Source: Tricholomella constricta
Taxonomy: Eukaryota > Basidiomycota > Agaricomycetes > Agaricales > Lyophyllaceae
Reading direction: 5' to 3'
DNA length: 64,000 nucleotides
Assembly: GCA_013368375.1 (NCBI GenBank)
Contig: JAACJP010000037.1
Location: forward strand, 1-64,000
Shown piece by piece: positions 14,470 to 37,769 of the stretch; the stretch's first letter is position 1, and every line of letters begins with the position of its first letter. The translations under genes were made by a program, and so were the position numbers. Below the pieces are notes generated by a model. The model saw nothing but the letters and a program-made list of their open reading frames with translations. It ran no database searches and was not told where the DNA came from.

Positions 14470-14488
14470 GCCGATAGCAAGCACCAAT

Positions 14489-15544
14489 GTGCCTGGGAGC
14501 TTGGCCGACGAATTGGCCAGGTCACATCGACCTGGCCCCACGGCGGGAAGCAGATGGCCAGACAGCCGTCTGTCAAGTAGAGCGTTCGGGGCGTCCACCC
14601 TGCGCATAGTCAAGATGGAGTCGGACGAAGACGACTTGTCCGATCCCGAGGCTAATGAAGAAGAGGCCAGCGAAAGGGAATTGCTTGCACTTCGAGTGAA
14701 GCAATTCTGGGACACCACCGATGTGGTTAGCGAGCATCGATGAAGGCGACTGGAGGAACGAGCGGATAGGCTCGTTCTGCGATCTACCGGAGCACAAGCT
14801 GTTGGAGAAATGGTCGCACAGGCATATGCCGACCGATACCTGGAAGCGCTGTCTGTAGTAGTTACGGAATACAGGAAGAAGTACCCTAAGGGAACTTCGA
14901 ATTCAGCAGTCAGCTCGATTGCTGGGACGCCTGTACCTAAGAAAGCTCCGTTAAACAAAAGAAAAGGTCGTTGGGATGACCTCTTCACTCCTCAAGCAGT
15001 GGCTGCTGGATCGAACCAGCCTCTTGATGAGGCTGCCATGGCAGTATCGGCGCTGCATCAAGCGCGCCAGTTAGGAGAATCTGACAACGATTACCATCGT
15101 CGGTCCGCGGCAGCGAAGTGCGAAAGAATGACTCGTGAAGAGCATCTTGCGCAACCACAGGGATCCAAATGGGCCCCTGTTAGTGAGTCTACGTTAGACC
15201 CACCCACGGAACGTAAGTATACAACCACGCAACCAGCTAGCAACGAAAGCGCGCCAGCTATTCAAGTACCTATGGATGCGAAGGATGGCCGTGTTCCATT
15301 AGCGAAAGATTGGAACAACCGAGTCGCATATCAGCGTTTGAGAAACGCTGATTTATCACGGAGCAAGTTCACGAATTATGATGATCAAGGAGTCGTCTTC
15401 GAAGGACATATGCCCGTAGATGAGATGGCGAGGCAATGGGCCTCGCAAACTCAAGGTTCGGATGGTGGACTGGGAAATGGGGCCGTCGGAAAACATAATA
15501 CGACGGCGACGGCTAACGGCCGTCAAGACATGCGGTTCGTATAA
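14489..15544 (+). pseudogene. Element A, ORF upstream of gag (gag N-terminal part)
   Basis: One frame, interrupted by a single TGA (14741-14743) and then open from 14744 to the TAA at 15542-15544. The product is acidic at first (ESDEDDLSDPEANEEEASE), then helical and basic (for example YLEALSVVVTEYRKKYPKG), with a polar low-complexity second half and no recognised domain. The following gag frame lies in the -1 register and is open across this stop (from about 15540), so the two were probably one longer gag or are joined by a frameshift. I cannot tell decay from programmed recoding here. It has several hairpins, for example 14515-14537 and 14756-14777. Confidence 0.55.
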
Positions 15545-15594
15545 GTGAACCCACTGCACATGATCAGCCTCGATTTCAAAGTCGAGGCTACTCA

Positions 15595-16629
15595 ATGCCT
15601 GACCCGATTCGCAGGAGTCAATCAATTGCGGACGGAATACATGCTGCTGGAGAGCAGCATAAAACTAAGATGCACGAACGGTTGCATCAACTGATACACG
15701 AGCGACTGGCTGTACGCCTATCGCTCCCTGATGGTATGAAATCTCGTCGTGCGGACTCAAAATCCGTAGGCACTTATAGTGGAAGTGCTAAGTTTGGCGA
15801 ATTGGAAGAATGGCTAGCCAGCCTTGTCGTGATGCTAGCCGTGAGCCAGTTTGGAGGAGCAGAACGCGACCAAGAGCGCGTTCTGATAACATCCGAGTTC
15901 CTTGATGGTGAAGCTCGGAAGTGGTACAATCGCCATGTTATCCATGTGAACCGCGAAAAGCAGTCCTGGACGTTTGAAGACGTCATACTAGGGCTGTACG
16001 ATCGGTTCGTGTTGCCTTCAACCATGCAGGACGCTCGTAACGACTTGAACGCCGTTATCTATTCGGCGAGCAAAGGCATACAAGGTCTGTATGACGACCT
16101 TGTGGATCACGCCATGAACATGGCAGCAAGAACGGATGATTGGACGTTCCTGGAGAAATTTCTCAAAACACTTCCGCGCGATATGCGGAAGGCATTATTC
16201 GATGACGGGCTATCACCCGAAATCAACACAGCCCAAGAGTTCCTAGCGGTGGGCTTAGCACATCAAGCCACCCAGAAGACGGCTGATTACTTTGAGCGGA
16301 CCATAACCGCTCAGCGAAGTCAACCGAGCCAAATGCGGAAACCAGATGGGGGGCGAGTAAACGCTCCACACAATAATTTCAACAGGCCTCGACGGGTGTA
16401 TGGCGCAGTAAATGAAAAGCCATATGTCAAGCCAGCGTATCAGGATCAACCTGGACGTGGAGAGCAAAAGCCCCATGTCGAAAAACCAGCGGTGAAGACG
16501 GGAGATCGTCCGCGTTACGATCAAACCAAAAACCACGATCATCACAACCATCCTCCGGGTGAAGTGTGCTTTAATTGTGGAAAACTAGGGCATTTTGCAA
16601 AAGATTGCAAACAGCCCAAGAAACAGTGA
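15595..16629 (+). CDS. Element A Gag (capsid and zinc knuckle)
   Basis: 344 codons from the ATG at 15595. The middle is a retrotransposon Gag/capsid-type helical region (FLDGEARKWYNRH, then VILGLYDRFVLPSTMQDA) as in Ty3/gypsy elements. The C-terminus has a CCHC zinc knuckle, CFNCGKLGHFAKDC. A TGA (16627-16629) ends this frame, but the same frame stays open beyond it for protease, so A's gag and pol are in one register. Either the TGA is read through or it is a decayed CGA; other TGAs in A favour decay. It is intact otherwise. Confidence 0.85.
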   Translation: MPDPIRRSQSIADGIHAAGEQHKTKMHERLHQLIHERLAVRLSLPDGMKSRRADSKSVGTYSGSAKFGELEEWLASLVVMLAVSQFGGAERDQERVLITSEFLDGEARKWYNRHVIHVNREKQSWTFEDVILGLYDRFVLPSTMQDARNDLNAVIYSASKGIQGLYDDLVDHAMNMAARTDDWTFLEKFLKTLPRDMRKALFDDGLSPEINTAQEFLAVGLAHQATQKTADYFERTITAQRSQPSQMRKPDGGRVNAPHNNFNRPRRVYGAVNEKPYVKPAYQDQPGRGEQKPHVEKPAVKTGDRPRYDQTKNHDHHNHPPGEVCFNCGKLGHFAKDCKQPKKQ

Positions 16630-17105
16630 GCGTTCCTAAGGGCCGCACGTACAGCGGCACCTGACGCGGCAAGTGAGGTGGACGATGAAGATACGTCTCC
16701 CGAGGACCCGGACGGACGAGACAATGGACGCCCTGATACAGAGGCGGACAATGAAGACGAAAGCGATGAGTTTGTAGACATGGAAATCTACGAAAATGAA
16801 TACTATGCTCGGGACGATGAGACCGAGCGTATGTTTGCAATGACAGAAGTAATTGCGTCAGAAGAACGCAATGATAAACCACCAGTTCGCAAAGTGAAAG
16901 TGCGGACGGGTAGGGACAAGATTGCTCATCCCGTAGTTCCGATAAAGGACAAGGAGTGCCTTGTCACCTACATTAACGTAGGTGGACATGAGGCTTGGAC
17001 CCTCTGGGATTCCGGGAGTACAACTACCGGACTTACGCCGTCATTCGCTCAAGTGGCCGATATTCGAGTATTTCCGCTGGAGGATCCATTAATCCTCCAG
17101 CTCGG
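16630..17105 (+). pseudogene. Element A pol, part 1: linker and start of protease
   Basis: Same frame as gag after its TGA: an acidic linker (EDTSPEDPDGRDNG, DESDEFVDMEIYENE) and the beginning of an aspartic protease, with catalytic DSGS in WTLWDSGSTTTG (about 17005). Broken at LQLG by element B. The continuation is at 23615, where GTKGSRATVNFG picks up in frame once one TCGG is removed. Confidence 0.85.
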
Positions 17106-17294
17106 TGGAGTAGCGTGCGCGCGCTACTCTAAACGCACGAGAGACGGATAAGGGCGCTATTTGTACATGTTTGGCTAGGACTTCCGAAGATTAGTCATCA
17201 CTAGGTAGACATCCGGGGAGATGGCAGAAGATCTCCCCGAGAGAAAACAACAATCTATTCCAAGGCGAAGCCACGGGCAATCCGGCCCACTCCA
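17106..17294 (+). repeat. Element B 5' LTR
   Basis: 189-bp direct repeat with the short inverted ends TGGAGT/ACTCCA. Contains two perfect hairpins: GAGTAGCG/CGCTACTC (17108-17129, loop 6) and CGGGGAGAT/ATCTCCCCG (17214-17239, loop 8). The second spans an ATG at 17221 that opens the gag frame. Confidence 0.93.
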
Positions 17295-18876
17295 TCTGGT
17301 GACGACGACAGATTCATCCACGCGAACTACGTACACAGCGAACAAGTCTAAAGAAGAATCAAGAGCAGCGCCTAGAGAAGAAACAGAGAACCACGGAAAT
17401 TTTCCAGTCTACAAACTGGCCCCACGACGTCGAGCACCATTACCCAGAGACGCACAAGGCCGATTCCTGGCTTTTCGTGAACCCACGCCCACACTGTCAC
17501 CCACGCCGACCACAACGGACACATCTAGATCGAACAGCCCCGATTCCTACGGATTCCCAGGCAGAAGCCCAACCGCACCCACGTCACCACCACAGATTCC
17601 GATCCCCATCGCAGACGACTCCGACAACGACATGCCCGCCAACGTCGAACCATTCTGGGGCGATCGCCCAGACGAAAACGGGCAAGACTTCTTCCGCGCA
17701 TTCAACCGCGCCATGGGCGACAAGTCCGACGACGTCAAGCGTAAGCTTTTCGTCAATTACCTTCACGCCGACGGAGAGGCTGACGAGTGGTATGCCGGAC
17801 TGCCCGCGGCGGTCCGCGCGGACTGGGATGACATCGAGACGGCATTCCATGCGCGATGGCCCAGGGCGACGGTGGCGCGAAAAACGGCGATGGAGTATGA
17901 GGAGGAGATCCTCGCGCTGCGTCTAACGGAGGAGAGCATGGGGTTGAAGGAATTGGTGGCAGGCCGGGACGTCTACACGCATATCGTGTGGGCGGACCGA
18001 ATGGGGGCGCTGGTAGCCAGGGCCGGACACGCGACAGGGTCGACCTACATCGGCCTTGTGCGCCGCGGACTACCCAGCCTCATTCGGGAGAAGATCGTCG
18101 GTGCGCCTGCCGACTGGACCGCCTTCTTAGCGACCGTACGTGCCGTCGACATCGACCACATTCGCGATGGCGCCGCAGAATTGAGAAAGGAGAGGGACAG
18201 GCAGAAGAGGTTGGACGAGCGGATGCGGATGTTAGAGGCGATGAACTCACCGACACGCGCGATTCGGGGACAGCTGGCGAACACCAGCATCACGGTCACG
18301 GCACCAAAGACACGGCAGATCACCACCCTCGAAGGAAACCCGTTCCTCAACGCAGGCGGAGGGCAGGGCAGCTTGTCCTACGCCACAGTGGGTGGAGGCC
18401 GAGTGGCGGGAGGAACAGCAGCTAGGACACCCCGACCACCGCCGACGGAGGCCGACCGGGTGGCGCTGCGCGCACGTCTGGCAGAAATGCTACACCACCC
18501 CAACACCGAGGCGGGTCGCACCGCACACCAGGCCCAGCAACGGGCCTGGATTGAGAAACACGGAGCGGAGACCAAGGTGACGGAGCTGACAGCGTACCCA
18601 TTACGCCCAGGAACCCTTCCCGCAAACTCGAACGAATGCTTCGGATGCGGCCAATCGGGCCACATCGCGCCCAAGTGCCCACTGCCCATGGAACGACGCC
18701 TGAACATCCGCGAGGCGGATTGGCGCGCCATCTGCCGAAGCGTGCTACGTATCACGTTCGCAACGCCTGTGCGGTACATAGCCATCGACGATTACGGTGG
18801 TATCGCCGCTGTCGAGCCATCAGCCTACATCGAAGAACTGGAGGACCAGGGAAATGGGGAAGGGCCGTCCGAATGA
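17221..18876 (+). CDS. Element B Gag
   Basis: Frame open from an ATG at 17221 inside the LTR to the TGA at 18874-18876 (551 codons). A later in-frame ATG at 17632 (MPANVEPFWGDRPDENG) begins the conserved part and is an alternative start. Order: proline/serine-rich N-terminus, capsid-like helical region (FFRAFNRAMGDKSDDVKRK, YLHADGEADEWYAGLP), a charged helix (ELRKERDRQKRLDERMRML), and a CCHC knuckle CFGCGQSGHIAPKC near 18640. The 3' end overlaps pol in the -1 frame by about 240 nt, with a frameshift signal just before the stop. Confidence 0.88.
   Translation: MAEDLPERKQQSIPRRSHGQSGPLHLVTTTDSSTRTTYTANKSKEESRAAPREETENHGNFPVYKLAPRRRAPLPRDAQGRFLAFREPTPTLSPTPTTTDTSRSNSPDSYGFPGRSPTAPTSPPQIPIPIADDSDNDMPANVEPFWGDRPDENGQDFFRAFNRAMGDKSDDVKRKLFVNYLHADGEADEWYAGLPAAVRADWDDIETAFHARWPRATVARKTAMEYEEEILALRLTEESMGLKELVAGRDVYTHIVWADRMGALVARAGHATGSTYIGLVRRGLPSLIREKIVGAPADWTAFLATVRAVDIDHIRDGAAELRKERDRQKRLDERMRMLEAMNSPTRAIRGQLANTSITVTAPKTRQITTLEGNPFLNAGGGQGSLSYATVGGGRVAGGTAARTPRPPPTEADRVALRARLAEMLHHPNTEAGRTAHQAQQRAWIEKHGAETKVTELTAYPLRPGTLPANSNECFGCGQSGHIAPKCPLPMERRLNIREADWRAICRSVLRITFATPVRYIAIDDYGGIAAVEPSAYIEELEDQGNGEGPSE
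17297..17309 (+). promoter_or_regulatory. Element B primer-binding site (tRNA type)
   Basis: TGGTGACGACGAC begins 2 nt after the LTR. TGG complements the CCA tail of a tRNA, so priming is probably by a host tRNA. I cannot name the tRNA without a tRNA set. Confidence 0.5.
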
Positions 18877-18894
18877 ACGCACAACGGACGGCCC
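18849..18894 (+). promoter_or_regulatory. Element B -1 ribosomal frameshift signal
   Basis: Slippery heptamer GGGAAAT at 18849-18855 in the correct X XXY YYZ phase (gag codons CAG GGA AAT). A 6-nt spacer (18856-18861) precedes a perfect 9-bp stem, GGGCCGTCC (18862-18870) with GGACGGCCC (18886-18894), loop 15 nt. The gag TGA lies in the loop. Gag is in frame 1 and pol in frame 3, exactly the -1 relation needed. Confidence 0.85.
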
Positions 18895-21800
18895 AACAGC
18901 ACAAGGCGGTGGACGCAGAGGTCCCCGCCCAGCGAAGAGGGGTGGGCGGGGACGAAGCGAGGACTCACGAGATAGATTCAACCCAACATGTAATTCGTGA
19001 AAACATGAGCATCGTTGACATCTATGCCGTGGGTCGCGCGCCCACTATCAGCGAAACGGGAGCAATACCATTCCTGCACACAGTGGAGTTAGTGGGGATG
19101 GAGGGGGAGAGAGTGTCGGTCATCGCAACGTTTGATGACGGTGCAATGGTGGGCGCCATGTGCAGCCGCATATTCGAACGCGTCAAGGCACGGCTCAGTG
19201 GCTGGGGGCCCTCGGAGCGCCGTCTGCGCATGGCAGATGGAAAGGTGGTGCGGGCAGAAGCGGTGTGGTGTGGAGACATCGAAATCGCCGGTGTCAGGGC
19301 GCGAGGAGCATTCGAGGTGTTTGACAGTGGCGGTAGCTGGGAGTTCTTGTTTGGAAAGCCGCTAATGCTGGCGTTCGACGCCATCCACAGCTACCGCCTC
19401 GACCAGGTGACCATACGAGACCTCAACACCTGCGCCACGCTGCAGAACGAAAATCCGAACGCACCACGGACGCACTTGCACAGCCAGACAGCACCTAACA
19501 TGGTGGCGCGAGGAAACACAATGGGGGGGCAGTCCGAAGCTGCAGACCAACCCCCCCTGAGGCAAGTCACCCCTTCTCTTACCAGTCACGCAGACGCACC
19601 TGACAAACCGAACGTTGCACAACCCACCAAACAAGACGAAGGAAACGCAGCGCCTACGGCGACGCCGCACCCGCCTCGACGTGCTGCATGGGTTGAAGAC
19701 GAAGAAGAGGCAGAGACGGTGTCCGAACGCAAGGGGCAGGATACCAGCAGCGAAACAGCGTGCAACGAAGGAGAAAACCAGCAACCGGACAGCGGGGCAG
19801 GTGAAGAGGGAAAACAGGAGGCGGGGCAAAAGGAAGAGCCCAAAGGAAGGTCCCCTTTAGCGGCGAGCTGGAGAGGAGCAGGGCAAAGGAGACATCGCCG
19901 ATTCCACACTCGAACACGCAACATACCAAGGATCAAGCGCATAGGGACGGGGCAGAGGCGGAAACCGCCCCAAGCGCACACGGGCAACGCAGACGAGGCG
20001 ACACCAATACAGAACATCAGCGATGCCACCATCGAGGAGCAGGATATGGGCACGGACATTCCTGTCGATGAATTGCGTCGGGATAATGAGGGGATCTTCA
20101 CGAGGAAGACGGATCCTTTCAAACCGGAGAGAGTGGCAGAGATCCTGCGATGCATCAAGATCGGTGACGATCTCTCCAGCGAGGAACATGCCACCGTGTG
20201 CGCATTGGTCGCCGAGTACGCTGATGTGTTCGCACTGTCGGTCGGAGAGGTTTTCACGGTGGACGGCGCGGTACATAAGCTGAATGTACCGCCTGACGCT
20301 AAGTTTTCATCAAAGGTTCGCCAAAAGCCACTCACACCGCCGCAGCGACAGTACTTGCACGAGAAGATAGACAAGATGTTGGACGCAGGCATCATCGAGG
20401 CGTGCAGCCCCAACGACGTGAAGTGCGTCTCACCAACGACGTTACCTCAGAAGGCGCACCAAGGCGCGGGTTTGACGCTCGACGAGCTCAAACAACGGGT
20501 GAACGAACAATGCATAGTTAACGGCTTTGATCCACAGTTCCAAGTAGCACCCAGAGGCGAACCAACACCCGATGACGAAAAGCCGCAAGGAGCGCCGAAG
20601 TGGCGGATTTGCCAAAATTTTGCAGAGGTCAACAAGCTCACAGAAATTGCCCCGATGCCTCAGGGCGACATACGAATGAAGCAACAAAAGTTAAGTTGTC
20701 ATCGCTGGCTCTCGCTTTTCGATTTCGCTTCCGGCTTCTACGCAGTGGAGATGGCCGAGGAATCGAAACCCTACACGGCGTTCTACGTCGAAGGGCGAGG
20801 CTACTTCTGGTACCGTCGCATGCCGTTCGGTCTCACGGGCGCACCATCTACGTTCGCGAACGTTACGGCGAACTGCCTGCACGACCTCCTAGTGCAGGAG
20901 GTTATTGAATTGTTCGTTGACGATGGCGGGATGGCGTCAAACGAGTTTGGCGACATGGTACGGAAGCTGACGCTGTTATTCTCGCGGGCGCGCGAGAAGA
21001 AGTTGTCTATCTCAGCAGCAAAGTCGGAATTGTTCGTGTCGACAGGCGTGTTCGCGGGCGCGTCTGTGGGGCGGGACGGAGTGCAGCCCGATTTAACAAA
21101 ACTGACGGCCATTGTCAACTGGAAGAACCCGGAGGACACAATGAACCTAGCGGCCTTCTTGGGGCTCACGGGTTGGTTCCGTGACCTCATAAAGGGGTAT
21201 GCTTTGGTGGAGAAGCCGCTACGGGACCTACTGCGGGAGGTCGAGATGCCTCCAGGGTGTTCGAAGTCAGTCTATCGCAAGACAATGGGGAACTGGAAGC
21301 TCGCCGACAGATGGACAAGCGCGCATGATAAGTCGTTCATCGAACTGAAAAGGCTGTTAACGTCAGAACCAGTGCTGCGCGCACCGAAGTGGGACGGCAC
21401 GCACTTCATCATTACGAGTGATGGCTGCCAGGACGCGTTTGGCGCTGTGCTAGCGCAACGGTTCACGACGGAATTGCCAGGGGGGAAAACAGTCACGAAG
21501 CTACACCCGCTAGGTTTTGCGTCAAAACGCACCTCGCGGGCGGAAGGGAAGTACAAACCCTTCCTCCTCGAGTTTGCCGCGCTAAAGTTCGCCCTCGACA
21601 AGTTTTCTGACATTGTATGGGGTTTTCCGGTGGAGGTGGTGACGGACTGCCAGGCCTTGCGCGACGTGCTAACCAACGACAAGCTCAGTGCCACGCACGC
21701 GCGATGGCGTGACGGGATCCTGGCGCATCAAATCGTGGACGTACGGCACGTACCCGGACGCACAAACGTAGTGGCGGATGGACTAAGTAGGGCAAACGAG

Positions 21801-23369
21801 GGCAAGCCAAACGAAAAAGGGGATGGCAGCGATTGGTCAGTGAGTGAGGACTGGGAGGCTATAACAGGACTGGTACACGACATCTTTCGGGTGGCCGAAT
21901 GCACCGACTTGGACGCCCTGCGCCACCGTTTCGCGGGCGAACCAATGTTCATGGAGGTAATCGAGTCTCTGAACGAACTCGACACAGGCAAAACGCTGAA
22001 GGAGCGGCGACGAGCAAAGCATCGCGCCATGGATTACATGCTCGAAGGAGACAGATTGTACAAGGTCGGAGGGGGATCAAGGGCTCGAGCGCGGGCGAGA
22101 GTGGAATGCGTGACGCGGGGCGAGGCGATCGAATTGGCACGCAGGGAACACCACAGCGGCGGCCACTGGGGACGCGATGCAGTAAAACGACGACTGACTG
22201 ACACAGTGTGGAGCCCGGGGCTCGACGCCTCAATACTGGAGGGTATTAAAGACTGCGGGAAGTGTAAAAATTTTGGTGGTACGCACCTTCACGCTCTCTT
22301 GAACCCGATAACACGGCGCCACCCTTTCGAGCTCCTGGTGGGTGACTACCTATCACTGCCCACCGGTACGGGCGGATTCCACACGCTGGGAGTGTACCTC
22401 GACACATACTCCCAGCACGTGTGGGCACACAAATTCAAAACGGCGGGAACCGCGAAGACAACGGTTGAGTCTCTCGGGCGGATTTTCCAGGACTTCGCGC
22501 CATCGGAGACGCTCATGGTCGATGGAGGACGACACTTCAATAACAAGGAAGTCAAGGATTTCTGCGGGAAGTGGGGGACAGAGACGCATGTCGTGGCGGC
22601 CTATTCACCCTGGGTGAATGGGCTGGTTGAAGGTACGAACAAGATCCTTCTACATGTCTTGAAACGACTCTGCGCCCCGGACTTAGACGAAGCCGAATGC
22701 GATGCCATGCCCATCGCCAACCTACCGAAAAACTGGCCCAAATACCTGGACGAGGCGATCCGGATACTCAACTGGAGAATGCTCCCCGCCTTAAACCACT
22801 CGCCGAAGGAACTACTGCTGGGGCTAGTGATTGGCACACCGAAAACACAGCCCGAGGACAGCGCATCAGTGCTCAAGACGGACGACGTCAATACACAGCT
22901 CGCATACACTGCGCAACAGAGGCTAGACGGTTACGCCGCGGCGGTAACACATGCTGTTAAGCGCAAAGCGGCATTCGACAGACGCGTCACAGCGGAACGG
23001 CAAGGGGAAGTTATATTCCAACGCGGTCAGCTCGTACAGATCTATCGAAACGACCTGGACTACACGTTCAGTACGGACCGGAAGCTACTCCCAAAATGGT
23101 CGACGCCACGGAGGGTGACCGAGCGAATTGCGAACTCATACAGGCTGGAGACGTTGGGGGGCGTGGCGCTGGAAGGGAGGTTCAGCGCAAGGAGACTACG
23201 AGGTTTCACACCGAGGGAGGGTTCGGACCTGGAAGCAAAGCAAGCAGCTGTAATGAAGAAGGTGGCAGAAGAGGAGGACGAGAGGGGAAGAGCAGACGAA
23301 GCCGAAGTGGCGGCGGACAGGAGCGGGGAGGACGAAGACGGCTGGGAAACGGAGGAAGAAGGAGAGTAA
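18853..23369 (+). CDS. Element B Pol (protease, RT, RNase H, integrase)
   Basis: The pol frame is open from 18636 and probably entered by -1 slippage at 18849-18855. Domains in order: aspartic protease (ATFDDGAM near 19125, DDG rather than DSG/DTG); acidic/basic low-complexity linker to about 20060; RT with LFDFASGFYAVEM, MPFGLTGAPSTFANV and catalytic FVDD (20913-20924, where most relatives have YLDD); RNase H (TSDGCQDAFGAVLAQ); integrase zinc-binding HH..CC (HHSGGHWGRDAV, CGKCKNF) and catalytic D, D, E (LLVGDYLSLP, LMVDGGRHF, GLVEGTNK). The tail is acidic, with no clear chromodomain. No stops: apparently functional. Confidence 0.92.
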
Positions 23370-23425
23370 AGTGAGGATAGCCCGGAAAATGCGACGGGGA
23401 CGTCGCTTTGTTCGGGGGGGGCACA

Positions 23426-23614
23426 TGGAGTAGCGTGCGCGCGCTACTCTAAACGCACGAGAGACGGATAAGGGCGCTATTTGTACATGTTTGGCTAGGA
23501 CTTCCGAAGATTAGTCATCACTAGGTAGACATCCGGGGAGATGGCAGAAGATCTCCCCGAGAGAAAACAACAATCTATTCCAAGGCGAAGCCACGGGCAA
23601 TCCGGCCCACTCCA
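23426..23614 (+). repeat. Element B 3' LTR
   Basis: Identical by eye over 189 bp to the 5' LTR, preceded by a run of eight G in TTCGGGGGGGG, the likely polypurine tract. Confidence 0.93.
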
Positions 23615-27303: not shown

Positions 27304-27336
27304 TCGCACAACGGGTGAAAAGTACGCCCCCGTTGT
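27294..27336 (+). promoter_or_regulatory. Element C -1 ribosomal frameshift signal
   Basis: Heptamer GGATTTT (27294-27300; phase G GAT TTT) is followed at once by gag's TAG. Seven nt later comes a perfect 8-bp stem, ACAACGGG (27308-27315) with CCCGTTGT (27329-27336), loop 13 nt. Pol is in the -1 frame and open across this site. The order GGATTTT-TAG resembles -1 sites described for some plant RNA viruses (recalled, not searched). Confidence 0.8.
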
Positions 27337-30300
27337 CTAGTCATAATCGGTTCGCCCCCCTATCGGTAGAGTACCCCAATATACTTAATATTGCTGCTAC
27401 TTCTACGGGTGAACCATTCGACGAAGACGTACAATCCTCCCCTGACCAATCGCCATCTCCGTCGGTCGCTCCGACCAAGCCGACCGCACCGTCGCGTCGC
27501 GGACTACCACGCTGGGAAAAACGACTACCCCGTCGCTTCATGATCGCTGCCTCCCCCGACTCTTTATCCCTGTCGCTCAAGGTCGAGCTTGAGACCACCG
27601 ACACCCAGGAGATGCACTCGCTCTCTGCCCTTGTTGACAGCGGAGCCACTGGATGCTTCATTAACACCGCCTTTGTTGAGAAGCACAAACTGAAGACCCG
27701 ACCGTTAAACCGCCCTACACTAGCCTATAACATCAATGGAACCCCTAACCAAGCGGGCGCCATCGGATATGTTGTAGACGCGGTTCTACGCTACGACGGT
27801 CACTCCGAACGGGTGCTGTTCGCGGTCGCAGGCATCGGGAAGCAGGATCTCATCCTCGGATTCACCTGGCTTCGAGACCACAACCCCGACATTGATTGGG
27901 CGACAAAAAGGGTGAAAATGAGTCAGGCGCCGTCGCGTTGCGACACCTGCAAGGTTGAGGCCAAGGAAGAGCGGCGCTTGCGCACCAAACTGCGAGCTGC
28001 CATTCGGGCCTGTCGGGTGGAAGGAATTCCGACCACAGAGCCGGATCTGCGTGCCCCGACCAGCCCCTACGTCGAGGACGACTCTGACACGGACGAATTC
28101 CTCCCCTACACCCCAGTCATGGAGGAACCCGATCCAGAGTCGGACGACTTCCTTGCGGAGACCTTCCTGAACGGCGACCGCATCTTTGCGACTGCGATCC
28201 ACCCTCCTCCGACTGTGGCGCACATCCGTGCCAGTCAAACGACATCGCAGCGACTCGCGGAAGCGCATGCCGCGAACTCTGAGCCCAAGTCGTTCCGCGA
28301 CGCCGTTCCGACCCACCTCCACGACTTTGAGGACGTTTTCTCCAAGGTCGCGTTCGACGAACTCCCCGATCGCAAACAGTGGGATCACGCGATTGAGTTG
28401 GAGCCGGGCGCTTCGCCGTCCGGCACCAAAGTCTACCCACTGTCGCCGGCGGAGCAAGTCGAGCTCGATGCGTTCCTCAAGGAGAACCTCGAGTCGGGTC
28501 GGATCCGTCCGTCGAAGTCACCCATGGCTTCGCCAGTGTTCTTCATCAAGAAGAAGGATGGTGCGCTCCGGCTGGTGCAGGACTATCGGACGCTCAACAC
28601 GCTTACGGTGAAGAACCGGTACCCACTGCCGCTCATTAGTGAACTGGTGAACAACCTCCGCGGCGCGCGGTACTTCACCAAGCTGGACGTCCGATGGGGG
28701 TACAACAACGTTCGGATCAGGGAAGGCGACGAGTGGAAGGCAGCGTTTCGGACGAACCGCGGTCTCTTTGAGCCGCTCGTCATGTTCTTCAGCCTCACGA
28801 ACAGCCCCGCCACATTCCAGACCATGATGAATGATATCTTCCGCGATCTGATCGCCGAGGGTGTTGTTTGCGTGTACCTCGACGATATCTTGATTTACAC
28901 CAAGACTCTCGAGGAACACCGCCGGGTCGCGCGACTCGTGCTGGACCGACTCCGCGAACATAAGTTGTTCTTAAAACCCGAGAAATGCGAGTTTGAACAG
29001 ACCAAGGTCGAGTATCTTGGGCTGATCATCTCGCACGGGCAAGCGGAAATGGATCCGGTCAAGGTCGCTGGAGTGTCGGAGTGGCCGGCGCCGAGGAACA
29101 AGAAGGAGGTGCAAGCGTTCTTGGGCTTCACCAATTTCTACCGACGGTTCATCCAGGACTTCTCGCACCATGCCCGACCCCTGTTCGATCTGACGGGCAA
29201 GGACGTCGCCTGGCGCTGGGAAGTGTCGGAGCAGTCGGCCTTTGACCTCCTGAAGTCTGCGATCACGTCGCGACCGGTGCTTGCATTCCCCGACGACGAC
29301 CGACCGTACCGCATTGAAGCTGACTCGTCCGACTTCGCGACGGGCGCGGTCCTGTCGCAAGAGTCGCCGTCCGATGGCAAGTGGCACCCGGTCGCGTTCT
29401 ACTCGAAGAGCTTGAACGCAGTCGAGCGGAACTACGAGATCCACGACAAGGAGATGCTGGCGATCATCCGGTCTCTGGAGGAGTGGCGACATTTTGTGGA
29501 AGGCGCAAAGCACAAGGTGGAGATCTTGACCGATCACAAGAACCTTGAGTACTTCCTCACCGCGAAGAAACTCAATCGGCGGCAAGCCCGCTGGTCGCTC
29601 TACCTCGCCAACTTCGACTTTACCCTCCACCACCGTCCGGGACGCAGCATGGGCAAACCCGACGCCCTGTCGCGTCGCGCTGATCACGGCGACGGAAGTG
29701 GCGACAATGCCGACATTGTACTCCTCAAACCCGAGTTCTTCGCAATTCGCGCGACCGAAGGTCTAGTACTGGTCGGAGAAGAAGACGATGTACTAAAGGC
29801 AATTTGCAAGGGCAATCGCGACGGTGCACAGGAGGACGCGGTCGCGAAAGCGGCGCAACTGGTCAAGGCATCCAAGACCGCCGGTCGCTCCCTACGCTTC
29901 GGCGAGTGGGGGGAGGAAAGCGGTCTGCTCACGTTCCGTGGACGGATCTATGTCCCGAACGTTCCTGACCTTCGCCGACGCATTGTGGAACAGCACCACG
30001 ACTCCAAGGTCGCCGGTCACCCGGGTCGCTGGAAGACGTTAGAGCTGGTGTCGCGCAACTACTGGTGGCCCCAGATGTCGCGCTTTGTCGGTTCCTACAC
30101 CAGCACCTGCGACATGTGCTTGCGCACGAAACCCCGCCGCCAACTCCCCGTCGGACAGCTGCAGCCGCTCCCAGTCCCCGAAGGTCGCTGGAACGTCGTA
30201 TCGGTGGACTTCATCACCGAGCTCCCCGAGTCCAACGGCCACGACGCGATCATGAACGTCGTGGATTCGGTCGGAAAGCGAGCGCACTTCATCGCATCGC

Positions 30301-31340
30301 ATACGACCTGTTCGGCCTTGGGAGCTGCCAACCTCTACCGTCGTCACGTCTGGAAGCTGCACGGCCTCCCCGACGCATTCGTCTCTGATCGAGGTCCACA
30401 GTTTGTTGCCGAGTTTACACGCGAGCTGTACCGACTCCTGGGTATCAAGCTGTCGGCTTCGACGGCGTACCATCCGCAGACCGACGGGCAGACTGAGCGC
30501 GTCAACCAGGAGCTGGAACAGTTCTTGCGGGTCTTCTGCAATGAGCGCCAGAACGACTGGGAGGACCTCCTGCCCGACGCCGAATTCAGTTACAACAACC
30601 ATGTACATTCGGCGACGCAGCAGACCCCCTTCCTGCTCGACACTGGTCGGCATCCACGCATGGGCTTTGAGCCGCGTCAGGGCGCTTCCACGAACGAGTC
30701 GGCCGACGAGTTCGTGGAGCGCATGAAGGAAGCCCAGGAGGAAGCCAAGGCGGCGCTTGCAAAGGCAAAGGATGACATGGAGCGGTATTACAACCAGCGA
30801 CACGCCCCCGCGCCCGACTACCAGCCTGGCGACAAGGTGTACTTGGACGCAACCGACATTTCTACGACCCGACCATCTAAGAAGTTGTCGCATCGTTACC
30901 TTGGCCCTTTCGTCGTGCAAAGGCGAGTCGGCCCGCTTGCATACCGCCTCCTGCTGCCTCAGTCCATGAAGCGCATCCATCCGGTCTTCCACGTCGTAAA
31001 GCTTGTCCCCGCCGTCGCTGACCCCATCGAAGGTCGGCAGTCTGATCCACCGCCACCCCCAGATATCATCAATGACGAGCCCCACTACGAAGTCCACAAA
31101 ATCCTCGACAGCCGCATCTTCCGCAAGAAACTTCAGTACAAAATCTTGTGGAAAGGCTACGGCTACGAAGAAGCTTCGTGGGAGCCCCGGGAGAATGTCG
31201 CCGCCCCCGACCTGGTGCGCAAATTCCACCGCGACAATCCCGACGTTGTGCGCCACATCCGTGGCATCTTCACTCTGTCCCCCGCCGTCTTCGCCACCGT
31301 CACCTCGCACCGAGCCGTTGCGATTCAAGAGGGGGGGTGA
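27300..31340 (+). CDS. Element C Pol with chromodomain
   Basis: About 1345 codons entered by -1 frameshift. Protease (SALVDSGATGCFIN, near 27640); RT (FFIKKKDGALRLVQDYR, FTKLDVRWGYNNVRI, FSLTNSPATFQTMM, catalytic YLDD at 28875-28886); RNase H (YRIEADSSDFATGAVLSQ, EILTDHKNLEYF); integrase zinc finger (HHDSKVAGHPGRW, CDMCLRTKP) and catalytic D, D, E (SVDFITELPES, VSDRGPQFVAEF, HPQTDGQTERVNQEL); GPY-like region (HRYLGPFVVQRRVGPLAYRL); chromodomain near 31080-31240 (YEVHKILDSRI, LQYKILWKGYG, ASWEPRENV). The chromodomain should direct integration to chromatin marks. Intact to the TGA at 31338-31340, directly before the 3' LTR. Confidence 0.94.
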   Translation, partial: LVAQRVKSTPPLSSHNRFAPLSVEYPNILNIAATSTGEPFDEDVQSSPDQSPSPSVAPTKPTAPSRRGLPRWEKRLPRRFMIAASPDSLSLSLKVELETTDTQEMHSLSALVDSGATGCFINTAFVEKHKLKTRPLNRPTLAYNINGTPNQAGAIGYVVDAVLRYDGHSERVLFAVAGIGKQDLILGFTWLRDHNPDIDWATKRVKMSQAPSRCDTCKVEAKEERRLRTKLRAAIRACRVEGIPTTEPDLRAPTSPYVEDDSDTDEFLPYTPVMEEPDPESDDFLAETFLNGDRIFATAIHPPPTVAHIRASQTTSQRLAEAHAANSEPKSFRDAVPTHLHDFEDVFSKVAFDELPDRKQWDHAIELEPGASPSGTKVYPLSPAEQVELDAFLKENLESGRIRPSKSPMASPVFFIKKKDGALRLVQDYRTLNTLTVKNRYPLPLISELVNNLRGARYFTKLDVRWGYNNVRIREGDEWKAAFRTNRGLFEPLVMFFSLTNSPATFQTMMNDIFRDLIAEGVVCVYLDDILIYTKTLEEHRRVARLVLDRLREHKLFLKPEKCEFEQTKVEYLGLIISHGQAEMDPVKVAGVSEWPAPRNKKEVQAFLGFTNFYRRFIQDFSHHARPLFDLTGKDVAWRWEVSEQSAFDLLKSAITSRPVLAFPDDDRPYRIEADSSDFATGAVLSQESPSDGKWHPVAFYSKSLNAVERNYEIHDKEMLAIIRSLEEWRHFVEGAKHKVEILTDHKNLEYFLTAKKLNRRQARWSLYLANFDFTLHHRPGRSMGKPDALSRRADHGDGSGDNADIVLLKPEFFAIRATEGLVLVGEEDDVLKAICKGNRDGAQEDAVAKAAQLVKASKTAGRSLRFGEWGEESGLLTFRGRIYVPNVPDLRRRIVEQHHDSKVAGHPGRWKTLELVSRNYWWPQMSRFVGSYTSTCDMCLRTKPRRQLPVGQLQPLPVPEGRWNVVSVDFITELPESNGHDAIMNVVDSVGKRAHFIASHTTCSALGAANLYRRHVWKLHGLPDAFVSDRGPQFVAEFTRELYRLLGIKLSASTAYHPQTDGQTERVNQELEQFLRVFCNERQNDWEDLLPDAEFSYNNHVHSATQQTPFLLDTGRHPRMGFEPRQGASTNESADEFVERMKEAQEEAKAALAKAKDDMERYYNQRHAPAPDYQPGDKVYLDATDISTTRPSKKLSHRYLGPFVVQRRVGPLAYRLLLPQSMKRIHPVFHVVKLVPAVADPIEGRQSDPPPPPDIINDEPHYEVHKILDSRIFRKKLQYKILWKGYGYEEASWEPRENVAAPDLVRKFHRDNPDVVRHIRGIFTLSPAVFATVTSHRAVAIQEGG

Positions 31341-31810
31341 TGTTAGGGGAACTCCCTTTCGCGCCCTCCGATGCTCACCGATCGTCCCCCCGCCCATGCG
31401 ATCGCTCCCCCGACCATTCGCGATCCTGACCCCCGACGCTCCGACCCAAGCGTCGGCGTATATACTTACACACTTCCTGTCGTTTCCCATCTCTCCCTGT
31501 GTGCGCCCGACGCCGATCCCGACCACCCGACATCCCGACGTCGGCTGTCCCCACTCGTGTCCGTACCCTGAGCCACGAGGATCGGACAGCGTCGGGAACG
31601 TGTCCATACACGCGCCGCAGACCATTCCTTGATTATTATGTACAGTACTCGTATATAGTCGGCCCACTGGCATTGGGGATCCTTAGTCTATTCTCTTCGG
31701 ATTCCCCTCTGCCAGGTAAGCCCCTCTTTACATTCCTTACTGTACTTAATATAACTTCGGATTCCCCTCTGCCAGTACGACTCAGCTCTGCTCGTGAGGT
31801 CGCCCTAACA
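31341..31810 (+). repeat. Element C 3' LTR
   Basis: 470 bp, about 98% identical to the left LTR by eye (8 transitions). The polypurine tract AAGAGGGGGGGTGA ends at its first base. The truncated LTR at 14137-14469 matches this copy better than the left one. Confidence 0.92.
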
Positions 31811-34117
31811 GGGTCGCCATTTTATTGGAGACCAATTCATCAACGATGCTTTGAAATGATAAAGCATATATGCTGCACAACACCAATTATTCGGCCGATT
31901 CAACCGAAGACAGGCGAACCAATTTGGATTATCTGTGACGCCTCCAAGTCAGGCGTCGGTGCGATGTATGGACAAGGACCTACATGGATCCAAGCCCAGC
32001 CGGCTGGATTCATGTCCAAAAAATTCACTAATGCACAGCAGAATTATGCTGTGCATGAACTCGAGACCTTAGCTATTCTCGAAGCGTTACTTAAGTGGGA
32101 GGATAAACTTGTGGGCTATAAAATCCACATCATTACCGACCATAAAGCCCTCGAATTCTTTAAGACCCAGGTGAATTTATCACCTAAGCAGCGTCGATGG
32201 ATGGAATACATGTCGCGATTTAACTTCAACATAACCTATGTGAAAGGCAAACTGAATAAAGTCACCGACTGTCTATCGCGATACTTTGAGAGCGATAACC
32301 ATCAAGATCGTTACGACGTCCACGACTTCGTAGCTGCTGATGCTAGAATCGACCCTACTGGTGAAGATCTACCAGTACCACGATACCATGAAATCGTGGA
32401 AAAAGTAGTTGAGATTCGAGCGATGAAAGACGTAGAAATACGTCGAAGCAAGCGTCTTCAAGAACGCCAGGAGGATCGAGATGTCGAAGCTCAGATAATG
32501 GAGGCTGCGGCACCAAGTACCGCATCCGGAACATCGTCACACCCTCAGAAAAGCATGAGTCCAACCGAACGGGAACGTACGGTCGGAGATATTGTCCTCG
32601 GGAGGGACACAGTTTCTCCTCCCCCAGACAAAACGGATGAAAAGATCCGTCACGACGTCATCCTTGGATACCCAAAGGATAAATTATTTTCAGTTATTCT
32701 CGCTAACCCAACGGACTTTCGTACGTTCACCACGAAAGATAATCTCATTTGGACCACGAACGCTATAAATGATAGCGTTCTATGTATACCGCGAGAACCC
32801 GAGCTCATCACCACAATTATTGAGCAAGCCCATAAAACTATGGGCCATTTCGGTGCCGAACGGACTACTGAATATATTCGACGATGGTATTGGTGGCCAT
32901 CACTAGCTACGACCGTGCGTACGTTTTGTAAAACGTGCGAGTACTGCCAGCAGATCAAGACGCCGAATCAAAAACCGTCAGGGAAACTACACTCCCTGCC
33001 AGTACCAAGTAAGCCTTGGGATTCTATCGGAATGGACTTTATCGGTCCATTTCCAGAATCAAAGGGATATAATTACCTATGGGTAGTAATTTGTCGTATG
33101 ACGAGTATGGTGCATATGATACCCATACATACGACGATGACAGCAGCCCAATTATCATGGGTATACTTACGGGAGATCGTCAGGCTCCATGGCCTGCCAA
33201 GCTCGATCGTAAGCGATCGAGACTCTAAGTTTACGTCACGCTGGTGGCGCGAACTACATAAGTTATTAGGAGCTAAGCTCCTAATGTCGACATCTTTCCA
33301 TCCTCAGACGGATGGACAAATGGAGCGAGCCAATCGTAGTATTGGCCAGATATTTCGCGCCGTTGTGAGGCATGACCAAAAGGATTGGGTAGATTGTATA
33401 CCCATGGCTGAGTTCGCGATAAATGCGAGCGTATCGGCTACCACCAAGTTCGCTCCATTTGAGCTGAATAGTGGATACATGCCGTCCATGTTGAAAGAGA
33501 TACGCTCAGACAGCGTAATACCAAAGGGAATTCGAGAGTATGCTGAACGCGCTTTGCAGAACATAGCGGAGGCGCATGACGCTATAATCGAAGCGCGCGT
33601 ATTTCAAACGCGCGAGGCAAACAGGCGCCGATCCGCTGGTCCAGAAATAAAGGGGGGAGACTTGGTGTATTTATCCACCAAGAACTTGAACCTCCCCAAG
33701 GGACGCGCCCGTAAATTGTGCCCGAAATTCGTCGGGCCCTACAAAGTACTGAAGGCCATGCCAGACACATCGAACTATATGTTGGAATTACCTACGGCAC
33801 TCATGGAGCGCCGGATACATCCAACATTTCATATATCGCTGTTGCGTCCATACTACGCAACGAATGATACAATGTTCCCTAATAGAACTCATCCGGAGCC
33901 CTACGATTTTGGGGCGCCGGATAATCACGAATGGTTCGTAGAAGACATTTTGGGCCATAGATGGACCCAAAATAATACTGTGGAATATCAGGTTAGGTGG
34001 AGCCTGGGAGACACCACCTGGGAACCGCACACCAACTGTAACAAGTTAGCGGCACTGGATCGCTACTTGGAACTACAAGGGGTGAAGAGCGCGTCGAGAT
34101 TACCGCGACGAACCTAG
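31811..34117 (+). pseudogene. Element A pol, part 3: RNase H, integrase, chromodomain
   Basis: Continues A's pol frame after C: RNase H (WIICDASKSGVGAMYGQ, ELETLAILEALLKW, IITDHKALEF); a linker; integrase zinc finger (HKTMGHFGAERTTEY, CKTCEYCQQI) and catalytic D, D, E (GMDFIGPFPES, VSDRDSKFTSRWW, HPQTDGQMERANRSI); a GPY-like segment (KFVGPYKVLKAMPDTSNYML); and a C-terminal chromodomain-like region (WFVEDILGHRWTQ, VEYQVRWSLGDTTWEP, 33920-34090). No stop codons in this piece, so the damage to A's pol lies upstream (insertions, TGAs). Hairpins include 32758-32780 and 33265-33285. Confidence 0.9.
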
Positions 34118-34245
34118 AATGTGGCGCGGTCATGTGACCACGGCGATCAGGAAAATTACATAACCATCAAAAGTTATGACAGAAGGTTAAATATGTTTGG
34201 CGCTAGACGCGCAACCGATTTTCAACCCTCTCAACACAAACCAAC

Positions 34246-37185
34246 ATGTACCCCAGCCAAGTACCAACTTCCAGCAACGACGCGATTCGGGGTGGCGACA
34301 GCCGCCCCGACCAGCAAAATTCGAACCCGGGGCCGAGTTCAAGTGGGGAGGGAGTGCAGGGGCGCGCGGAAAATGCGCCCCTGCCCCCAACTTACATGGG
34401 CTCGCAGCCCCAATTATACCAATATCCTCCGGTTGGCCATATGAGCCAACCGCCCCATCAGGGGCAACAAACATTTCCGACGGTTGGCCATATGAGCCAA
34501 CCGCACCACCAAGGGCAACAACCACCTATGGGTGGTTTTTATCCGCCAGGGCTGGCATTCCAACAGATGCCATCAATGGCGGGTTTCATGGGGTACCCGC
34601 AACCGACGTGGTACCCCCAAATGCCCATGCAGCCTGTACCGCACAATACGCGGTACAACGAGTCGGAGAAGATGGAGGTAGACGACCAAAGTCGTCTGCA
34701 AGCAAATGTTCCACCGGCGCAAGTGGTGCGCGGTGAACCGGTGCAGCAACATGTCGCACCGAATGCAGACGACAAAGCGTCGTCAGCGTCGAGTTCGCGG
34801 AGGATGGCAGACGATCGCAGAGTATCGCCTGCGTCAAGTTCGAGGAGACCATTCGCAGACGATGGTCTCCTTTCTTCTCTCTTGGACCGATTGGAAGACG
34901 CAGGTATTCACCGCGAATTTTGTGATTTCTTGGACGATGGAATGGCGCAGCTGGTTATAACCCAGCTGCTTGATGCATACGATGGAGCTCGCGCGGATTT
35001 GAGACGCGTGAAAACGAGAGAAGCGGCCATGGCTGAGCAATTCAGCCTGGCAAGAAAACAGCCGGCAGTAGCATCGCCGGATCGCGGGGAGGGACCATCG
35101 TCCCGACCCATAAAAAGGCAGCAAACGGAGGTGCGTCGAGAAGAACGCACCTCATACGAGCCGCGACGACAAGAGAGGAGCGAGCCCAGGCGTCCGGAAC
35201 GACGCCTGGAACAGGAGAATCGGCGGTACAACCGCCACCCCGACCAGGAAGTGTGGCGTGATGAACGCCCACTTGATTATGGTTCTCAACGGGAAGAGCG
35301 CCGAGAGGATCAAGGGACGCGCGAAGTGCGCCCCTTACCTGCTCGAGAAATCGAGCGCACGGCGTCGACATCGTCGACGTCAGCGGAAGCAAAGCCGCAA
35401 AACCTATCCGGAGCGTTACCGCCCCCGGGAGAAAGCCGGGTGCGGAACCCAGAAGAAGGAACCTGTTGGCAAATATACTTTGCCAGCACCAGCCCCTGCA
35501 CCACCTAGTACGATGGTGCAGCCCCCAACGCCGCCATCTAAAGGCAAACAGAAGGCATCGGATCCATATGCCGAGGCTATGGATGAATCGGACTGGGGCG
35601 AGTCGTCTGACGACGACAAGCCTGTCAGTAAGAAGAAGGCTGCCGGGCAAAAGCAGCATCGCGAGAATATGGCTCGCAAAGCGGAGAAGGAGATGCCGGG
35701 GCGGATCCCTGACGAGCTCGGGGTGGTCTTCATCAACGACCGCCACGAGAGGGACAACCGCTTTTGGGATATGCTAGTGCGGATGATATATGTATCGTCC
35801 GCCCAGAATCGTGCCTACGCACTAGGCACCGCAGCGCGAGTGTCCGAAAGCGAGTTGGGGACGGGACACAACTCTCGTCCCCCATCGGAACGGCTATATG
35901 CCGTCGCACCACGCGGGTTCCCAATGAACCCTCGTGAAGTTGATCAGTTGTATGCACTGATCAACGATCGGCGCCCTGGCGTGACGGATGAAGAGCAGGC
36001 AGAGGCCTTTATGCTCTTTAGGGAGTTCCAGCGAGTCTCCCTCTTGGTAGCGCCCCATTTGCGCGACCGATCCATGGCTCGAGCAGCCATGGATGAATTT
36101 AGAAGCGTCAACCGACCGTTCGATACACGGTCACCCATTTGGCAGGCCGCGCCAATTAGGCGGCCTGGGAGAGCATTCGAATATAGGCCGGACAAGCCTA
36201 CACGAGGCGCTGGCCTGCCTCAGCCAGGCCTCGACCATGCCCTCGATGTCGAGCACTGGTGCCGACATATGATTCACCATGGGCGTATTGGTTCAAAGAA
36301 CCAATACGGAGGAATCGTCATGGACTACTGGTTCCGCGTACATAGGCGCGGAACTTGGGGATACTTGTTGGCGAATGTACTAGCGCCAACTACCCACAGC
36401 ATGCGGTCATGGTTCATGCCACTTTTCGCGACCATTACTGCGCGGCCATACCTCTACTCAGAGGCTGTGGCTGCCTATAACAAGGCCAATCCCGATCGGC
36501 CTTTCACACCGATCGAAGGCCCTGAGGTTACCATACCTCGCATCCAAGTGATCCCTCCGGAGGTGCGGATCACTGAACAAGGACCTTGCAACACCTTATC
36601 AACATTGGTATTCCAGTAAGCTGGATACACCATAGCTACACTTATGGTCTACATTATTTGGACCATAACTACTCTAACTCAGGTCCCTATAAGGACCTGT
36701 TCCGCAATGTTGACGACGATCGAGTTCGTCGTCTAGATGAAATGGGCGTTCCGCCCGCCATCCCTGAGTGGGATGGGTGGTATCATCCCACCACCGACGA
36801 CATCACGCGCATCCAAACACTGATGCACGTGGAATTCCAGACCGAATCACTAGACTGTCTAGTGAGTTCGGAATGGATGTTTGTGGGTGAAGACCCACAC
36901 TTCCGAGGACTCCGTGTTCGGGTGGGGGAATATCTCCCCCCAGGCCTGCATCACCCAGCTTCATCGGGATCGACGTCCATCAATGTCGAAATGGCGGACC
37001 CGGCGGCAGCTATACCTGCCCCCGCGACACCCTCCACAGTCGTGGCAGCTCCAATTGGAGCTACCGAAACCCAAGTGGACCCCGTGTCGGCCCTTACAGG
37101 GCCTTTATCACTGGCGGTGATTACCACCAGCCAGGGTCCGGTGGACAACAACACCACCGACCCCGACACAGTGATGGAGTCATAG
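34246..37185 (+). pseudogene. Element A extra 3' ORF in the env position
   Basis: Three overlapping frames read as one protein of about 980 residues with two frameshifts: 34246 to about 35480 (frame 1), about 35480 to 36590 (frame 2), 36590-37185 (frame 1). The N-terminus is Pro/Gln-rich with two tandem copies of VGHMSQPxHQGQQ. Next comes a helical stretch (LLSSLLDRLEDAGIHREFCD), an Arg/Glu-rich linker, then a folded-looking half with aromatic blocks (FINDRHERDNRFWDMLVRM, AEAFMLFREFQRVSLL, YGGIVMDYWFRVHRRGTWGY, SWIHHSYTYGLHYLDHNY, RVRRLDEMGVPPAIPEWDG). No signal peptide and no membrane helix, so it is not an Env-like glycoprotein. I know similar uncharacterised mushroom proteins only vaguely. 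Function unknown. Confidence 0.7.
34428..34535 (+). repeat. Tandem repeat with hairpins in the element A extra ORF
   Basis: Two imperfect copies of a unit of about 55 bp, each containing CGGTTGGC and its complement GCCAACCG around CATATGA. They encode VGHMSQPPHQGQQ-type repeats. Confidence 0.75.
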
Positions 37186-37548
37186 GTCGGGGAGACAACC
37201 TAATCCCCCCGTCAACGAACCGACCTCGACACGTAGGGCGTACCGCCGGGGCGACCGCCATTGTCAGGTGCAGACCACCTGACTCCCGAGGAGCAATCCG
37301 CAGGTTGCGTATTAACGCAACATTGGAGGTCCTCACCACTACTCATTGTCGCACGGCACTTTGAGGCCGTGCAGTGGCGCTAATGCATCCACTTGTCGTT
37401 AAGTCGAGAATATGTATCATACCTACGTATTCTTGCATTATTTGATAGGTCTAGGTCGCCGAGACCTAGACCCTCCTTTTATTTTTTACTTTATTTTCTT
37501 GCCCTACTCCCTGGTGAAGATCGCTACACGCGATCTTAAAGGGGGGTA

Positions 37549-37769
37549 TGTAAGGACGCCCACTATCTTATCTAATATTGGTTATCTAATCGTATCTTAT
37601 CGAGACGATTACGCTATTGTTTGGCAACACCTTCTGGTGTTGCCTATTTAATTCATTACATTAAATAAGTATAAACAACCTTGTACACCTATACGTAGCA
37701 ATCGACAGACTTGTCAAGCTTACGTCTAGTGTGAACAACAAGGTCCCCAAAATCTGTAACTCCGTTACA
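37549..37769 (+). repeat. Element A 3' LTR (single copy)
   Basis: Begins TGTAAGGACG directly after a purine tract (AAAGGGGGGTA, 37538-37548) and ends ..CCGTTACA, so the ends TGTAA/TTACA are inverted. Contains a 9-bp hairpin GGCAACACC/GGTGTTGCC (37623-37644, loop 4). No second copy exists in the window, so the 3' end is inferred from the purine tract and TG..CA ends. Confidence 0.65.

Follow-up and report, generated by a model that had tools for sequence, protein, structure and literature searches.

Short perfect hairpins along a Ty3/Gypsy retrotransposon of Tricholomella constricta

Element A and its relatives

The window analyzed here, a stretch of 64,000 nucleotides, is positions 1-64,000 of contig JAACJP010000037.1 from the fungus Tricholomella constricta, whose genome comprises 44 Mb in 118 contigs. 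It contains a long terminal repeat (LTR) retrotransposon, element A, into which two other retrotransposons, B and C, are inserted (Table 1). With B and C removed, A's own sequence amounts to 10,468 bases, and short perfect hairpins occur in it in large excess over shuffled sequence.

A is a Ty3/Gypsy LTR retrotransposon of the chromovirus kind. Its Pfam matches above cutoff are RVT_1, RT_RNaseH, Integrase_H2C2, rve and SH3_Tf2-1, and its domains are ordered reverse transcriptase (RT), RNase H, integrase and Tf2-1-like SH3, as in fungal Ty3/Gypsy chromoviruses (120 of 869 homologues listed). A also carries a zinc knuckle; the matches to the Ty3 capsid and to protease are weak, as is the Chromo match (21.7 bits, below the curated cutoff of 25.1). 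The protein search with pol found the 869 homologues, with identities of 51-71% among the 120 listed, and the named ones among the matches listed belong to Phanerochaete, Trametes, Mycena, Agrocybe and Phlebia. Compared as proteins with the fungal chromovirus homologues, A has two features of its own, an extra open reading frame (ORF) after pol and an in-frame TGA.

The gag-protease (gag-PR) and RT-integrase sequences of A form a single frame interrupted by this TGA (L027:4421-4423 in an A copy, L059:3171-3173 in the sister family A'), which is followed by CTA, or by CTC in A'. UGA CUA is a readthrough context, and the TGA between the two frames looks like a site of programmed stop-codon readthrough. 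The extra ORF after integrase (34207-37185) is long, has no Pfam match and is broken in the window copy. It is open over each of two pieces of the fuller copy c6 (L027:8413-9999 and L028:1-1506).

A search of the genome with A's first kilobase scored 40 of 107 candidates, all 40 of which were matches. The corresponding search with RT had 827 candidates, of which 101 were scored and yielded 103 matches; 25 of these matches, at 72-73% identity, make up the sister family A', represented here by one copy (L059). No third related family emerged in the genome among 35 scored matches, all of which were read as A or A', and a scan of IMG/VR for relatives of A gave no confirmed match. In other A copies, a 221-bp LTR precedes the position equivalent to 14470 by about 280 bp. 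In the window copy, part of a C-type LTR in reverse orientation (14137-14469) adjoins 14470 in place of A's 5' LTR and leader. Substitutions private to the window copy are mostly C>T or G>A (85 of 123), a bias that suggests deamination or decay resembling repeat-induced point mutation.

Hairpin excess and its controls

We counted as a hairpin any perfect inverted repeat with a loop of 1-12 nt, and the arm threshold is given with each count. Chance levels came from 40 dinucleotide-preserving shuffles in 300-base blocks. With arms of at least 9 bp, A contains 24 hairpins and the shuffles contain 0.55 (sd 0.71); with arms of at least 8 bp the counts are 50 and 1.50, and with arms of at least 7 bp they are 93 and 5.78. 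The dinucleotide shuffles rule out chance or base composition as the cause. An earlier note on this DNA had listed 21 hairpins, 13 with arms of at least 9 bp and 8 smaller. All 21 are present where it placed them; in one, at 23843-23868, pairing continues outward to give an arm of 9 bp (23842-23869). Its thirteen of the larger class all exist and fall short of the full count. Loops are mostly of 4-9 nt, and counts drop sharply past 12 nt, towards background. Hairpins with arms of at least 7 bp span 15-29 nt and make up 22.6% of c6. The longest arm is 12 bp among the copies and 11 bp in the window copy (36284-36308). Close direct repeats are few (5 of at least 8 bp at distances of 8-39, a raw count without a shuffle control).

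The excess does not depend on codon usage. In 200 synonymous-codon shuffles, which hold protein and codon usage fixed, gag-PR has 31 hairpins of arm at least 7 bp vs 2.36 (maximum 7) and pol has 31 vs 2.81 (maximum 7), so that the excess survives the codon-preserving control proposed in the earlier note and codon usage is ruled out as its cause. Density at the same threshold peaks where protein constraint is absent, in the 3' untranslated region (16.5 per kb), the LTR (13.6) and the LTR plus leader of copy c51 (12); elsewhere in A, the extra ORF has 11, the spacer region 9, pol 8 and gag 6.3. The hairpins cost no conserved residues. When the pol of c6 was compared with an alignment of 29 proteins, at columns conserved in at least 80%, the family residue was present at 70 of 70 codons lying wholly within arms, 32 of 33 lying partly within them and 477 of 502 outside; in all, 129 codons of this pol lie wholly within arms. 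The two shuffle controls and the densities by region bear out the earlier note's claim of a pattern imposed on the nucleic acid itself, in gag, RT, integrase and the extra ORF as well as in spacers and LTR.

Neighboring DNA differs. With arms of at least 9 bp, counts against dinucleotide shuffles are 4 vs 0.25 in B, 0 vs 0.35 in C and 3 vs 1.50 in host DNA (two pieces summed). With arms of at least 8 bp, B has 9 hairpins, 4 in its two LTRs and 5 internal, and C has 3, two of them in LTRs. Against synonymous shuffles at arms of at least 7 bp, B pol has 7 vs 2.96 (maximum 8) and C pol 1 vs 3.91. C and the host are thus at expectation, and the excess in B is weak. B and C had been described as free of the pattern outside LTR and frameshift sites, which is right for C; five of the nine hairpins in B are internal.

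In a further set of 28 unmasked stretches beside or within the fetched A copies (47,486 bases), density is at most 2.2 hairpins per kb in 24. The exceptions are L013:1-1001 (3.0 per kb), the tandem array L025:1-1016 (3.9), L019:1-1001 (5.0) and part of L021 that is an insertion. This insertion, 586 bp within copy c8 (L021:2604-3189), has inverted ends, CAACTG/ACCGGTTGC repeats and 13.65 hairpins per kb; it is an unrelated, repeat-rich element. Tandem repeat arrays lie near A copies at L025:1-1016 and L023:4498-5597. Elsewhere in the window, 12354-13649 and 43935-45230 are inverted copies of 1.3 kb, 96% identical and with a 439-aa ORF, which are probably another mobile element, and 49694-56411 is a diverged tandem duplication with 80-86% identity across about 3 kb.

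Table 1. Positions in the window of the three elements and of individual hairpins in A.
Feature	Position	Strand	Remarks
A own DNA, piece 1	14470..17105	+	leader, gag and beginning of protease region; lacks the 5' LTR
A own DNA, piece 2	23617..25490	+	remainder of protease region and reverse transcriptase
A own DNA, piece 3	31812..37769	+	RNase H, integrase, Tf2-1-like SH3, weak chromodomain match, extra ORF (broken in window copy), 3' untranslated region, LTR
A 3' LTR, 221 bp	37549..37769	+	hairpins 37587-37611, 37623-37644, 37645-37667
Element B, Ty3/Gypsy, inserted in A	17106..23616	+	hairpin excess weak
Element C, Ty3/Gypsy chromovirus, inserted in A	25491..31811	+	without hairpin excess
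Hairpin	15330..15352		arm 10, loop 3; 7/10 pairs in diverged c70a and c53b, 8/10 in c8
Hairpin	17076..17101		arm 10, loop 6; adjoins B insertion point
Hairpin	23990..24009		arm 9, loop 2; among the few largely kept in A' (8/9 pairs, one via double change)
Hairpin	24981..25006		arm 9, loop 8, RT; c51/c70a differences clustered both sides, spacing mostly three bases
Hairpin	25113..25140		arm 10, loop 8, RT
Hairpin	32031..32056		arm 10, loop 6, RNase H
Hairpin	34356..34384		arm 10, loop 9, extra ORF region
Hairpin	36284..36308		arm 11, loop 3, extra ORF
Hairpin	37448..37472		arm 10, loop 5, 3' untranslated region

Arms among copies, strand symmetry and pair type

Hairpins persist among diverged copies more often than random placement of changes would allow. 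Copies c51 and c70a have 455 differences, and c70a keeps 54 hairpins (arm at least 7 bp), compared with 30.5 (sd 3.9) when silent and non-silent changes of matching kinds are placed at random. In all 14 copy comparisons, the count at this threshold exceeded all 100 class-matched simulations. Degenerate third positions, scored only in codons whose first two positions agree, differ between c51 and c70a at 17 of 262 sites in arms (hairpins of the window copy) and 218 of 1587 elsewhere (P 0.0006); sites in loops (12 of 101) are not clearly unlike the rest. Across the 14 comparisons the ratio of arm to other sites was 0.37-0.68; P fell below 0.01 in 4 of them, lay between 0.01 and 0.05 in 2 more and exceeded 0.05 in the other 8.

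We next consider the direction of change, scored as gains and losses of hairpin score in 14 tests of 200 random draws each. The "young stem" is a reading from states shared among copies. On the young-stem branch there were 9 gains vs 6.1 at random and 9 losses vs 23.8. The same comparison gave 11 gains vs 5.0 and 14 losses vs 21.8 for c53b, and 6 gains vs 2.2 and 4 losses vs 10.2 for c51. In older copies, private changes come nearer to the random values: 9 gains vs 5.6 and 24 losses vs 28.2 in W, 6 vs 8.1 and 36 vs 40.7 in c8, and 2 vs 1.6 and 11 vs 9.6 in c53a; values for c18 were 8 vs 6.4 and 26 vs 34.4, and for c70a 15 vs 11.0 and 37 vs 48.7.

Private and shared variants served as a proxy for inserted and replicating lineages, respectively. 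The test took in 36 copies, not all of them in full, across a 4.5-kb region around RT, and its expectations were matched for base and CpG class. Shared variants fell in arms 23 times vs 46.6 expected (P 1e-4). Private changes did so 39 times vs 43.1, made up of 24 vs 24.4 in four old copies and 15 vs 18.7 in young ones, and private and shared variants in arms differed (Fisher P 0.023). Our conclusion is that mutation does not generally spare the arms, and that they are avoided by changes that went through retrotransposition.

Both strands of A fold well. We compared the mean energy of 60-nt windows with that of 40 synonymous shuffles, in sense and antisense. For A, z was -13.1 (sense) and -10.8 (antisense) in gag-PR and -12.2 on both strands in pol; B pol gave -2.4 and -1.3, and C pol -1.8 and -0.1. 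In a separate comparison over a whole A copy in two pieces (181 windows), mean z was -1.99 sense and -1.90 antisense. The sister family A' is strongly structured like A, with a lean to the sense strand (gag-PR -8.0 sense and -5.3 antisense, pol -9.5 and -5.4). Its perfect hairpins are fewer and shorter; with arms of at least 6 bp and against synonymous shuffles there are 20 vs 7.9 (maximum 17) in gag-PR and 17 vs 9.3 (maximum 16) in pol.

A and A' share hairpin density, with most positions differing. Of the A hairpin pairs (arm at least 7 bp) aligned to A', 139 are unchanged and 18 have double changes, together 157 of 334 (0.47), and random Watson-Crick pairs are kept at 0.44. A' hairpin pairs with a double change stay paired in 20 of 40 cases vs 0.34 expected. 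Strict conservation of position is not observed in the alignment, although some conservation remains.

A shows almost no strand asymmetry and no preference for G-U pairs. In near-perfect hairpins of c6 (at least 6 pairs), G-T mismatches number 21 vs 8.6 expected and A-C mismatches 29 vs 12.3; at the strictest setting the counts are 1 vs 0.8 and 7 vs 0.8. In none of eight settings was G-T clearly more enriched than A-C in A. With arms of at least 7 bp, the excess is 130.2 hairpins when G-U is allowed and 134.1 when A-C is allowed. Among A copies, broken pairs comprise 35 G-U and 48 A-C (P 0.19), besides 17 of other types. This set holds all shared broken pairs, which may include those of W, c8 and c53a, and the private ones except those of these three copies; a pair was dropped if its commonest state was other than Watson-Crick or if fewer than half of the copies held that state. 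A mild sign of the sense strand is that loops are A-rich (0.357 vs 0.278 overall in c6).

Causes, precedents and meaning

The likeliest cause of the hairpins is selection for local structure, and template switching is the live main rival. The reading we favor, and hold with about even confidence, is that selection maintains short Watson-Crick hairpins at high density from end to end of A, largely regardless of position. Few hairpins stay in place between A and A', and their density would be kept up on lineages that still retrotranspose, in genes through codon choice. We infer selection, rather than a replication-linked mutation process, as the cause. A narrower form of this reading, which we put forward tentatively, is that the hairpin coat is perfect on both strands, with selection acting at once on sense RNA and its complement, in genes through synonymous codons, and with largely free turnover of position. 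That selection would see both strands in A is suggested by the lack of a G-U preference, the few compensatory double changes and the lack of hairpin-creating insertions or deletions.

The use of such a coat is the least certain part. We suspect that it most likely prevents the sense strand from pairing with its complement, whether antisense RNA or minus-strand cDNA. Each of the two could fold on itself quickly, and strands so folded would neither anneal together nor feed host RNA silencing. If separation of the strands is the benefit, perfect Watson-Crick pairs, which are valid on both strands, would be kept and G-U would not be favored in A.

Several observations weigh against the favored reading. 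When c70a, c8, L029, L011, L013 and L015 were left out of the variant test, singletons (15 in arms, 181 outside) and shared variants (22 and 267) of the remaining 30 copies showed the same depletion in arms, a ratio of 0.52 for both; with c70a and c8 restored, the counts were 35 and 245 for singletons and 23 and 291 for shared variants (Fisher P 0.038). The separation of private from shared variants depends on the fuller, composition-matched set. Nor are shared variants independent events, as some stem from divergent subfamilies, and the clustering of subfamily differences suggests recombination, which would likewise make variants non-independent. Position is not wholly free, as 106 of 198 A' hairpin pairs (arm at least 6 bp) are paired in A, 0.54 vs a background of 0.44. 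The lean of A' folding to the sense strand suits plain selection on sense RNA, and in A' coding sequence the excess at arms of at least 7 bp is 28.7 with G-U allowed vs 11.5 with A-C allowed (7.8 vs 6.1 at arm 8). Finally, under replication-linked mutation, too, hairpins would be expected to decay in inserted copies and to persist on active lineages.

The mutational alternative is quasipalindrome template switching: the nascent strand would fold back during reverse transcription and use its own arm as template, so that each cycle completes imperfect hairpins, with selection on protein only filtering the products. We think this improbable, though it would account for the strand symmetry of A without a G-U preference, the higher density where protein constraint is absent, the limited positional conservation with A', the upkeep on replicating lineages and a few candidate hairpins with multiple changes, such as 34551-34574 in c70a. 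Against it, we would expect compensatory double changes about as often as reversions, and ten copy comparisons contain only three pairs (15866, 33667 and 15242). None of 15 aligned insertions or deletions of at least 3 nt created an arm-7 hairpin, and one, at 34447, disrupts a hairpin. The main effect on the young stem is the missing losses rather than surplus gains. Imperfect hairpins with one mismatch, which template switching should complete, persist in excess (39 vs about 6 in c6), and c8 has an intermediate state of the hairpin at 15330-15352. A strand-symmetric process does not predict the sense lean of A'.

An equally improbable alternative is structure of the sense RNA alone, of the genome-scale ordered kind known from viruses, serving in packaging, stability or shielding from small RNAs. 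Strong sense folding in both families, the lean of A' to the sense strand and the A-rich loops of c6 speak for it. Folding of sense RNA should tolerate G-U, and yet G-T and A-C mismatches are enriched about equally, pairs break to G-U no more readily than to A-C, and the antisense strand of A folds about as strongly as the sense. The mismatch and broken-pair counts argue against G-U-tolerant folding of sense RNA as the sole cause in A. RNA folding was one of three meanings raised in the earlier note and fits best of the three, with the proviso that sense RNA by itself explains A poorly. The second, template switching that completes imperfect hairpins, is not favored, and the third, small-RNA production, seems unlikely given perfect arms of 7-12 bp.

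That the hairpins are binding sites of a sequence-specific protein or inserted palindromic mini-elements is very improbable: the span is narrow under the chosen limits, but no arm or loop sequence recurs (the commonest arm 6-mer occurs only 4 times), arms encode conserved protein residues, and Rfam at gathering thresholds gave 0 matches in window positions 14000-38000. We reject sequence-specific sites for lack of a recurrent motif, inserted mini-palindromes on the evidence of the indels and the encoded residues, and a known structured RNA family on the Rfam result. A ligand that recognizes shape only could exist.

The nearest precedents come from other systems. Genome-scale ordered RNA structure is known in some RNA viruses, where it is genome-wide, found in some relatives only and not made up of discrete elements (PMC3950689). 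A resembles it in these respects, and its folding energy likewise lies well below that of sequence-order controls throughout gag-pol and the whole copy. A differs in being an LTR retrotransposon rather than a positive-strand RNA virus, the setting in which such structure is linked to host persistence, and in stems that are short, perfectly Watson-Crick, about equal on both strands and without a G-U preference. The coding palindromes of nematomorph mitochondria are perfect inverted repeats in conserved coding sequence, with the protein kept and many positions not common to species, as in A. They have arms of 15-142 bp, lie in mitochondrial DNA and show no excess of imperfect repeats (PMC6649704), whereas A has arms of 7-12 bp, imperfect forms in excess and few compensatory changes. 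A thus resembles both systems and fits neither definition fully.

A third comparison bears on use. RNAs copied by Q-beta replicase that lack strong structure throughout form a dead-end duplex of new strand and template (PMC5362092). A is like these RNAs in having structure throughout that is partly reachable by synonymous changes, and unlike them in copying by reverse transcription, where a need to avoid duplexes would be our extrapolation. The earlier note knew of no description of such a pattern. This holds for LTR retrotransposons among open-licence papers, where we found no report of such hairpin saturation (most subscription journals and bioRxiv lie outside that coverage), although the viral and nematomorph cases are close precedents. 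The word retrotransposon is absent from the main text of a study that surveyed 118,019 genomes for perfect inverted repeats (PMC13155455).

If our reading is correct, A would be an LTR retrotransposon under virus-like, genome-wide structural selection, but of a kind that is Watson-Crick-only and two-sided. This would point to a step that needs both strands folded, such as sense-antisense annealing, silencing or cDNA synthesis, and would offer a natural system in which to ask whether dense local folding shields parasite nucleic acid from duplex formation and silencing. It would also mean that synonymous sites of transposon genes need not be neutral, which bears on the dating of copies by synonymous divergence.

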